Source of the DNA: Helicobacteraceae bacterium
Lineage (GTDB): Bacteria; Campylobacterota; Campylobacteria; Campylobacterales; SZUA-545
Assembly (NCBI GenBank): GCA_031275395.1
Contig: JAISOU010000046.1
Span: forward strand, 1-54,499
Direction: 5' to 3'
DNA length: 54,499 nt
Within the stretch, counting starts at the first letter, position 1; each line of letters begins with the position of its first letter. The notes beneath the pieces were generated by a model, which saw only the letters and a list, made by a program, of their open reading frames with translations, made no database searches and was not told the DNA's origin. Positions 49,099-54,499 of the stretch are shown piece by piece. The translations under genes and the position numbers were made by a program.

Positions 49099-49710
49099 CT
49101 AACTAAGCCACTCGGCGATGAACTTGCGTAATTCTACCTTGTCGCGCTTTATCCGCGAGGCAAGCGCCAGCGCTTTAAGCGTTTCCAAGCTCTTTTCAAA
49201 GCTATCGTTGATCAAAAGATAGTCGTAAGCGCCAATGGATTGCATCTCGTCGAGCGCGTTTTCCAGCCGTTTTCGGATCGCTTCGGGATCGTCCGCGCCG
49301 CGTTTTTCCAGCCGTTCTTTTAAGATCGCGTTCGACGGCGCGGTAACAAAAACGCTCGTCGTTACGTTTGCAAAGAGCTTGACGATCGACGCCTGTCCTT
49401 GAACGTCTATATCAAAAACGACCGTTTTGCCCTCTTTTAACTCGCTTTCGACCCGCGATCTGCTTGTGCCGTAGTAGTTGTTATGCACGTTTGCCCACTC
49501 CAAAAACTCGCCTCTTTCGACCGCGTCGCTAAAGGCTTCTTTGGAGGTAAAAAAGTAATCTTTTCCCTCTTGTTCGCCGATTCTTGCGGTTCTTGTCGTC
49601 GTCGATACGGAAAGATGGGCAAAGTCAAAATCCTCGCATAATTTTTCACACAGCGAGCTTTTGCCCGATCCGCTGGGGCCTGAAACAACCAGAAGCGATC
49701 CGCTCATCAT
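49099..49710 (-). CDS. gmk: Guanylate kinase
   Basis: Gmk phosphorylates GMP to GDP. The 203-residue protein has Walker [18 protein letters not shown] (about 8), the GMP-binding [19 protein letters not shown] (about 37), [13 protein letters not shown] (about 71) and [12 protein letters not shown]. Its start overlaps the end of the acidic gene by four bases. All residues expected for activity are visible. Confidence 0.97.
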
Positions 49711-51269
49711 TTTTTCTTTGGAAACGCTATATTGATCGTCAGCTGCATTCCGTCCAGCAATTCGCGCAGGGTATTTGGAGGTAGAGCCGCCAACGCGCTT
49801 TCAAGCGCGCTTTTTTGCGCGCTCTGTTCCGATCCCTCGTCGGCGCGTTCGCCAAAGGTTAGCTTCAACGTTTCTTGCGATTCGTCCTCCTGATCTTCTT
49901 CGATCTGCGGCGGCGTTAGCTCCAGCTTTTCGCCAAGCGCCAGCGCCACGTCGCTTTCGCCAAGCGCCGATAATTCGTCGTCAGTTTCTTCTTTTGGTTC
50001 TTGCGCGATAGGCGTTTGCTCGGTATGTTCCTCTAGCTCCTCTAGTTCGCCTACGATCGGGGTTTGATCGATTGGATCGATCGGATCAAGCGGGATCTCG
50101 TCAAAACTGATTTTGAAATCGTCGTCGATAGGCTCTTCGGCGGGGGTTTCTTGCGCGATATTCTCGTCGATCGTATCTTGGTTTTTTGGAAGCTCGTCAA
50201 AACTTATTTCAAACTTCTCGCTAGGAGCGTTAGCGTCCTCTATGCCAAGATCGATATCGGCAATCTCCTCCTCTTTCGCGTCGCTTTTTTCCGGCTCGGC
50301 TTCGGCGGCGCTCTCCTGTTTAAGATCGGCTAAATCCTCGTCGTCAAGCAACGAACCGTTTTCGCCAAGATCCAGTTTAAGCTCCTCTTGCGTCGTATTC
50401 AGATCGCCTAAATCGTCCAGATCGCCTAAACCCTCCTGTTGCGTCGTATCCACGCCTAAATCGTCCAGATCGCCTAGATCGCCCAAACCTTCCTGTTGCG
50501 TCGTATTCAGATCGTCCAAATCGTCCAGATCGCCTAAACCCTCCTGTTGGGGCGCGTCGAGATCGTCCGTAGGCGTTTCGCTCGGTTTTTCTTGCGGCTC
50601 TTGGTTAATCTCGTCTAATAACCCTTTAACCTCGTCAATCTCCTCTTTGTCTAAAACGGAAGTTTTCGGCTCGTTTTCGTCGTTAGCGCTTTGATCCGCT
50701 TGCGTTTCGTCCGCGGGTTTCTCCTGCGCGACCGACAAGTCAAGATCGTCGTTTTGATCGATCAGATCGATCTCCTGCGCCTGATCGCCTTCGATCGGCG
50801 CGAGATCCTCGACCTGCGCCGTATCCGCGCCGCTTGGAGAGGTCGTCTGCGTTTCGTCCGACGCGCTCAGATCTCCTAGATCGCCTAAATCCGCCGCATT
50901 GTCGTCAAACAGCGCCAAATCGTCGTCCACAGACGGAAGCTCTTCCGGCGTCTCGTCGCTTTTGTTGGCGGCAAACTCGTCGGTGAGATCCGTAGGCAGA
51001 AGCGGCTTTTTAATGTAGAGATCAAAGCCTTCGATTTCCTCGCCGTTCTTGGGATATAAAAGCCCGATTTTGGCGTTTGAATACTTGGCGCGCAAGGTTT
51101 CTATTCCCTCGCCGTCCAAACTTTCGTTATCGACCAACGCCCACGCGTAATCGCCCGCCGCCGCGTCCGCTACGTTTTCGGCGGTCAATAACTCCATTCC
51201 GCTTTTCTGCGCGCTAAGACGCACCAGCTTTTCAACCATTGCGTTTTTATTGATGAGTAGAATCTTCAT
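49707..51269 (-). CDS. Highly acidic repeat protein with receiver-like N-terminus
   Basis: The 520-residue protein has an N-terminal receiver-like fold of about 100 residues (KILLINKNAMVEKLVRLSAQ, WALVDNESLDGEGIETL, GLLYPKN, DLYIKKPLLPTDL), with a Lys of the KP(L) motif but a degenerate acidic triad. Then come about 350 residues rich in Asp, Glu, Leu and Gln, containing near-repeats of TTQQEGLGDLDDLDDL (about 260-330), and a folded tail LPPNTLRELLDGMQLTINIAFP. It is homologous by position to the acidic protein next to gmk and fliR in C. jejuni. ATG 51269 is chosen for its AGGGAGCGG ribosome site. Confidence 0.82.
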   Translation of the reverse strand: MKILLINKNAMVEKLVRLSAQKSGMELLTAENVADAAAGDYAWALVDNESLDGEGIETLRAKYSNAKIGLLYPKNGEEIEGFDLYIKKPLLPTDLTDEFAANKSDETPEELPSVDDDLALFDDNAADLGDLGDLSASDETQTTSPSGADTAQVEDLAPIEGDQAQEIDLIDQNDDLDLSVAQEKPADETQADQSANDENEPKTSVLDKEEIDEVKGLLDEINQEPQEKPSETPTDDLDAPQQEGLGDLDDLDDLNTTQQEGLGDLGDLDDLGVDTTQQEGLGDLDDLGDLNTTQEELKLDLGENGSLLDDEDLADLKQESAAEAEPEKSDAKEEEIADIDLGIEDANAPSEKFEISFDELPKNQDTIDENIAQETPAEEPIDDDFKISFDEIPLDPIDPIDQTPIVGELEELEEHTEQTPIAQEPKEETDDELSALGESDVALALGEKLELTPPQIEEDQEDESQETLKLTFGERADEGSEQSAQKSALESALAALPPNTLRELLDGMQLTINIAFPKKK

Positions 51270-51314
51270 TACCGCTCCCTGCAAGCATTTCAAGTAAAAG
51301 AATTAAAGCCATTG

Positions 51315-53293: not shown

Positions 53294-53509
53294 CGCATAA
53301 CCTTATTGTAAATCTACGCCTTATTCTAGGAAAAATTAGCTATTTTGCCCGCTTTATGTAGAAACAAACGACGCAAAATCCGTCCTGATTTGTCGCTAAA
53401 CTTGATCAAAAATAACGGCGTTTTTTTAGTAGATTTATAGCGATTGCGAACATATTTTTATTTTTTCCGCTACCATACAGATCATTTCTCGCCCAATAAA
53501 GGAGCTTCA

Positions 53510-54499
53510 ATGTTTCAACGTTCATTAAACCTCTCTAATGGGGGGGGGGGGGGCGACCTTTCAAGCTCTAACAAGAGCTTTTAACGCTTTTATTAACAAA
53601 CCCTTTGCTTTACTTACGCTTGTAGCGTTCCTGTTTATCGGTTGCGATCTATACCGCGATAGGGCAAGCAAAGGAGGCAACAACAATTCAATAAGCTACA
53701 ACATTAGCTTCTATAACGCCGATCTTGATCTTGTTGAAACAAAATCGATCTTGGGAGGTTCGATCAACCCTTCCTCTCATAATAGTTTGGTTTTGGAGTG
53801 GTATAAGGCAAACGAAAGCGCGGCTACGACAAACCACAACTTAGACGATGATATTCGCTTCTACGCCATTCCTAACGTTAAAGAGATAACTACTCAAGCG
53901 GAGTTAGCTAATATTGGCGCAGACGCTACAACCTTAGCGGGCAAATATATTCTACTTAACGATATAGCGTTAAGCGATAGCGGCGCTGGCGTTGATAGTA
54001 GCGGTTGGAATCCGATCGGTAGCGACTTCAATCGTTTTAAGGGTATCTTTAACGGAAACGGATATAAGATAACCAATCTATGGATCAATATACCATCAAC
54101 CGATAATGTTGGTCTTTTTGGCTATATCGAGGGCGCAAAGATTAGAAATCTAGGCGTTGAGATCAATAATAGCAAGGGCGGAGTTCAAGGATACAATTCT
54201 GTCGGCGGTATTGCGGGGAGTGTTGTCGGCAACTCGTCGATAACCAATAGCTACGTTGCGGGAAGCGTTAGCGGAACAGGCCGTGTCGGCGGTATTGCGG
54301 GATATGTTGTCGGCAACTCCTCCTCGATAACCAATAGCTACGTTGCGGGAAGCGTTAGCGGAGTAGTTAATGTCGGCGGTATTGCGGGGTGTATTGAGTC
54401 TTCTGCGATCATCACAAATAACGCCGCAATTAATCCGTCTGTCAGCGCAACCTCTTACATAAATCGCGTTGTCGGGTATATCAAGGACGGAACAGTTTC
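53510..54499 (+). CDS. Phase-variable GLUG-repeat lipoprotein, out of frame here, cut by window edge
   Basis: ATG 53510, with AAAGGAG upstream, opens MFQRSLNLSN and runs into 14 G. With 14 G this frame ends at TAA 53582-53584. The long frame beyond the tract (from 53553, stop-free to the edge) encodes ATFQALTRAFNAF, a hydrophobic segment with lipobox LLTLVAFLFIGC (Cys codon 53643-53645), then about 285 residues including GLUG-type repeats (VGGIAG, ITNSYVAGSVSG). The lipoprotein frame joins the good start only with 13, 10 or 16 G. A second ATG at 53538 is in frame with the lipoprotein at 14 G but lacks a ribosome site. It is probably a surface-exposed adhesin-like protein. Confidence 0.8.
53540..53553 (+). 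repeat. Poly-G tract, 14 G
   Basis: Fourteen consecutive G start 30 bases into the lipoprotein gene. Such tracts slip during replication and switch genes on and off in Campylobacter and Helicobacter. Exact length may also reflect sequencing or assembly choice. Confidence 0.95.
54201..54391 (+). repeat. Direct repeats in the lipoprotein gene (84/87 bp)
   Basis: Units start at 54201, 54285 and 54372 (third incomplete), each beginning GTCGGCGGTATTGCGG and containing, in the first two, ATAACCAATAGCTACGTTGC. Spacing of 84 and 87 bases keeps the reading frame. The first two units are nearly identical at DNA level, which suggests recent duplication. Confidence 0.9.

Follow-up and report, generated by a model that had tools for sequence, protein, structure and literature searches.

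A homopolymeric G tract in the leader of a GLUG-repeat lipoprotein gene as a probable on/off contingency switch in a Helicobacteraceae genome

The window, by which we mean the whole 54,499-nucleotide stretch of DNA analysed, is contig C9 of the assembly of a Helicobacteraceae bacterium (genome G000; 2.08 Mb in 96 contigs), and 0.95 kb from its end lies a homopolymeric G tract in a lipoprotein gene (Table 1). Direct reading of the window sequence gives an exact count of 14 G, this being the length in the consensus of a still unfinished assembly. As no other G or C run in the 54.5 kb reaches 8 (7 overlapping matches, 0.15 expected), and as homologues carry tracts at the same site, the tract is not a chance run. 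An earlier note on this DNA had reported 14 G in the 5' end of a lipoprotein gene, which we confirm; the tract begins 30 nt after the first start codon, ATG1, in the 5' part of the coding region. The putative -10 element upstream, whose role as part of a promoter we infer, is the same in homologues from two other genomes (G005 and G011), where it stands at a similar distance from the Shine-Dalgarno (SD) sequence. Elsewhere in the window, on the minus strand (49707-51293), is encoded a 528-aa acidic protein with internal GLGDLDDLDDLNTTQQE-type repeats, adjoining guanylate kinase.

Table 1. Features of the lipoprotein locus, in window coordinates
Feature	Position	Strand	Remarks
Putative -10 region CCGCTACCATA	53467..53477	+	aligned with CCGCTATAATC / CCGCTATGATC upstream of homologous leaders
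Shine-Dalgarno AAAGGAG, serving ATG1	53498..53504	+	duplex -6.3 kcal/mol; conserved in homologous leaders
ATG1, main start	53510..53512	+	lipoprotein frame at tract length 1 mod 3 (13, 16)
ATG1 frame at 14 G	53510..53584	+	24 aa, then TAA
ATG2	53538..53540	+	last base is first G of the tract; lipoprotein frame at 2 mod 3 (14); no SD
14-G slippage tract	53540..53553	+	homologues have G7-G13 or C9-C18 here
Rest of presequence and lipoprotein signal peptide	53554..53645	+	lipobox FIGC (53634-53645), Cys 53643-53645
Mature lipoprotein, GLUG-repeat beta-helix, cut by contig end	53643..54497	+	Pfam PF07581; AlphaFold2 model

The two starts, ATG 53510 and ATG 53538, lie in different frames, both of which are open through the repeat. 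The frame of ATG1 relative to the gene is set by the tract length and coincides with it only at 1 mod 3; at the assembled 14 G its product is MFQRSLNLSNGGGGGDLSSSNKSF, with a stop at 53584, and it is ATG2 that opens a 320-codon lipoprotein frame running past the contig end. At lengths of 0 mod 3 (12, 15) both frames end early. The earlier note had connected the SD-led ATG1 to the lipoprotein at 13 or 16 G, ATG2, with its last base as the first G of the tract, at 14 G, and neither at 12 or 15 G; once the frames are translated, this whole modulo-3 table holds. A downstream alternative start in the lipoprotein frame was considered and rejected, as no ATG, GTG or TTG was found in that frame between the tract and the lipobox.

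Judged by its signal peptide, its lipobox and a cysteine that is invariant in the alignment of 10 family sequences, all of them present, the gene product is a bacterial lipoprotein. Its GLUG motif (PF07581) is recovered with E=2.9e-6 and 27.7 bits, against a Pfam gathering cut-off of 20.5, and the scores of homologues reach 89.6 bits. The AlphaFold2 model of the product is a beta-helix (pLDDT 85.7) and its best match in the PDB, 3n6z, which is thus the nearest solved fold, is likewise a beta-helix protein, from Bacteroides, annotated as a putative IgA1 protease. A scan of the part of the protein that lies in the window, and of the four complete relatives, found no protease domain.

The protein is one of a family of surface lipoproteins with GLUG repeats in Campylobacterota MAGs; matches occur in 12 of the 60 genomes searched (its own genome and relatives taken together), and its own genome has paralogues too. 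The named relatives are from Campylobacteraceae and Helicobacteraceae MAGs, whose isolate naming we take to be that of the termite-gut series in PMC9137090. In many family members a poly-G or poly-C tract separates an SD-led ATG from the signal peptide: homologues in four genomes (G005, G011, G003 and G002) carry G7-G13 or C9-C18 ahead of the hydrophobic part of the signal peptide, and an SD-ATGTTTCAA leader is common to the window's genome (two copies), G005 and G011. Two copies in G011 are 97% identical from the SD to the lipobox and differ there by a single indel, the tract itself, which is C15 and in frame from the SD-led ATG on contig C1, and C13 and out of frame on contig C84; in G005 related copies have G7 versus G9, these length differences in both genomes being differences between paralogues and not between strains of one locus. 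From the alignment, the G011 pair comes close to a natural record of slippage. This pair (L135 and L208) and a second one in G005 (L218 on C95 and L222 on C115), each 97% identical from SD to lipobox, are diverged elsewhere, with identities of 78-82% over the 100 nt upstream and 83-85% over the next 300 nt (gaps excluded), so that leader and signal peptide look as if they had been kept alike by gene conversion.

Taking as phase-variable a gene with a hypermutable simple repeat, here a G or C run of about 9 or more, in the 5' part of its coding region, we find the arrangement at this locus, and a phase-variable lipoprotein is well supported by the sequence and its homologues. We propose that the locus is probably an ordinary contingency locus subject to on/off translational phase variation, at which the second ATG is incidental and its output at 14 G negligible. 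Slipped-strand mispairing, which we infer for this population, would alter the number of G in the leader that precedes the signal peptide of this surface lipoprotein; a count of 13 or 16 would join the SD-led ATG1 to the lipoprotein and turn the gene ON, and in the other two frames it would be OFF from ATG1. The poly-glycine encoded by the tract would be cleaved off with the signal peptide: the tract lies upstream of the lipobox, and therefore any added Gly or Pro should be lost in the same cleavage, and gain or loss of G in multiples of three should spare the mature protein. ATG2, having no ribosome site, would yield little or no protein at 14 G, and expression in that state is predicted to be weak at most. 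It exists because an Asn codon (AAT) happens to stand before the G run, and seems no more than incidental to an Asn-Gly codon pair.

How often such an ATG would arise by chance could be gauged from samples of comparable sequence. When the genes of the window are cut into codon-aligned 30-nt pieces, an open out-of-frame ATG is present in 13.7% of those that a G follows. Across 100 Campylobacterales genomes, we collected 56 distinct SD-led poly-G leaders in which no stop intervenes between ATG1 and the tract, and among these there was no excess of open out-of-frame ATGs at any position (11 of 56, against 12.3 +/- 3.0 in shuffles). Selection for an ATG abutting the tract was likewise considered and set aside as not significant, whether in any frame (12 of 56 against 7.8 expected, P ~0.07) or out of frame (8 of 56 against 5.9 +/- 2.2, P 0.24). 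The layout of SD and ATG1 followed by an ATG2 abutting G9 recurs in 26 of 399 Campylobacterales genomes, and in it, counting distinct places among the matches listed with an open ATG1 frame, ATG2 is in frame in 14 and out of frame in 22; the idea of a uniquely designed arrangement was rejected, given this recurrence and an out-of-frame share about as chance predicts. The second start is thus neither maintained nor enriched past chance in these comparisons, and they give no sign of selection for it; such enrichment would be expected were three states selected, although lic2A itself is not defined by it. In another Campylobacterales genome (G363, contig C1), five identical copies of an SD-ATG leader end in ATG and poly-G with the second ATG in frame, and appear to be a repeated phase-variable leader of another family.

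The earlier note had gone further than a plain switch and read the locus as having strong, weak and off states; its poly-G switch and its frame arithmetic stand, borne out by the tracts of the family and by the sister pair two C apart, and the distinct weak state does not fare as well. Under such a three-level scheme, ATG1 would give strong output at 13 or 16 G, ATG2 weak output at 14 and neither any at 12 or 15, so that the mature lipoprotein would be identical and its amounts would differ. We consider this unlikely, although the frame logic is exact and starts in different frames upstream of a repeat have a precedent in lic2A (PMC4235727). With an assumed anti-SD tail, the SD duplex energy is +0.7 kcal/mol for ATG2 against -6.3 for ATG1, with medians of -4.0 over the annotated ATG starts and -2.4 over out-of-frame internal ATGs; among the 31 annotated ATG starts of the window, one is no better served by its SD than ATG2, and therefore starts without an SD are possible. 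Only 28 nt, roughly the footprint of one ribosome, separate ATG2 from the strong start before it, and the G run that it adjoins might, by a rough energy model, form a quadruplex. Translational coupling from ATG1 to ATG2 was rejected, since the ATG1 frame at 14 G ends more than 40 nt past ATG2 and re-initiation backwards over that distance would be improbable. Nor is ATG2 conserved: it is missing from most family leaders and stands in the lipoprotein frame in no other genome of the family. A homologue in G011 (L217, contig C39) retains AATGG with an interrupted tract and has its lipoprotein read directly from ATG1, and one in G005 (contig C17) has AACTGGG instead of AATGGG and so lacks ATG2. 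As assembled, ATG1 leaves the lipoprotein OFF in ten SD-led leaders of the family, eight of which lack a second ATG in the lipoprotein frame; the other two, which share one common leader with a second open ATG in that frame, are the window copy and a paralogue on contig C26 of the same genome. Both of these copies, the one with 14 G and the other with the interrupted tract GGTGGTGGGGGG, stand, as assembled, in the frame accessible from ATG2 alone. The C26 tract, being interrupted, is probably frozen and no longer slipping, and this paralogue would therefore be a fixed OFF copy if ATG2 is dead; that both copies occupy the ATG2 frame does not fit comfortably with the on/off reading and speaks for the weak state. 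Against it, together with the missing SD and the lack of conservation, stands the chance-level frequency of out-of-frame ATGs in poly-G leaders.

Long homopolymers are slippage sites for polymerases and ribosomes alike, and 14 G is long, so that leaky output in every state, graded by the frequency of transcriptional or ribosomal slippage on the G run, is another conceivable reading and one that may coexist with on/off switching; it is independent of ATG2 and would hold for every tract gene of the genome, and we regard it as rather improbable as the account of this locus. That the run is an inflated or misjoined homopolymer, an artefact of assembly or sequencing, appears very improbable. Several runs at contig ends of this assembly are, at 50 to 70 G, implausibly long, and the window tract lies close to a contig end, but leader, tract and signal peptide follow in the same order in independent genomes, with conserved flanking frames, and the related MAGs were sequenced by HiSeq, which is not two-colour chemistry (PMC9137090), in a study to which the window's genome is not known to belong. 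A poly-G read artefact at this particular site was rejected, the join between leader and signal peptide being identical in other genomes. We retain on/off switching from ATG1 as the best explanation.

A pattern search recovered 52 G or C runs of length 10 or more in the genome, a count to be read as an upper estimate because the 50-70 G at the ends of contigs C46, C72 and C95 are probably assembly artefacts. Many other tracts lie inside genes, among them those for TonB receptors, an acyltransferase, a sulfatase, a subtilase lipoprotein and other lipoproteins, a set typical of the usual contingency-gene repertoire. The TonB-dependent receptor genes on contigs C48 and C88 (L068, L115 and L116, two of them on one contig) have tracts of G12-G14. 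The subtilase-family lipoprotein gene (L107, contig C61, position 2957) has G15 in an N-terminal extension; its second, tract-abutting ATG is in the same frame as the first, and a further in-frame ATG (MKRLIV...) past the tract, just before the signal peptide, might allow expression at a basal level in every state.

Tract length is the usual basis on which phase states are inferred from genomes. Should ATG2 be a working weak start, which we hold to be doubtful, a single mononucleotide tract would give strong, weak and off output and the C26 paralogue would be fixed in the weak state. Were that true, with about 1 in 5 SD-led poly-G leaders of the order containing an open out-of-frame ATG, many contingency genes of Campylobacterales annotated as on/off would really be three-level, and a call of on or off made from tract length would be mistaken for a sizeable minority of these genes. 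As matters stand, an uncultured relative of termite-gut Campylobacterota emerges with a large homopolymer contingency-gene set, as in its pathogenic relatives, and here the switch acts on a multi-copy surface-lipoprotein family and is placed in a removable leader.

Translational switching usually offers one ON state per two OFF states, the exceptions given in section 4.1 of PMC4235727 being genes whose repeat is preceded by several initiation codons that differ in frame, such as lic2A (citing Dixon et al. 2007). The present locus resembles lic2A and other lic genes of Haemophilus influenzae, as described there, in having a repeat in the 5' end of the frame with more than one upstream start in different frames, and hence the potential for unequal expression levels; graded output from such starts, already reported for lic2A, would accordingly not be new in principle. 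The repeat of lic2A is a tetranucleotide, CAAT, the product is a glycosyltransferase and the use of its starts has been tested, whereas here a mononucleotide G tract precedes a lipoprotein and the second ATG, a candidate start, has no SD. The product shares the GLUG motif and a modelled beta-helix with GLUG-repeat (PF07581) surface proteins, and differs from them in being lipid-anchored. Comparable too are the poly-G and poly-C translational contingency genes of Campylobacter and Helicobacter, such as pldA and fliP of H. pylori and those of H. canadensis, in which a coding-region homopolymer likewise sets ON and OFF by frameshift in a Campylobacterales host (PMC2823697, PMC11768039); unlike those, the window locus has a tract that precedes the signal peptide of a lipoprotein, belongs to a multi-copy GLUG family and comes from an uncultured relative of termite-gut Campylobacterota.
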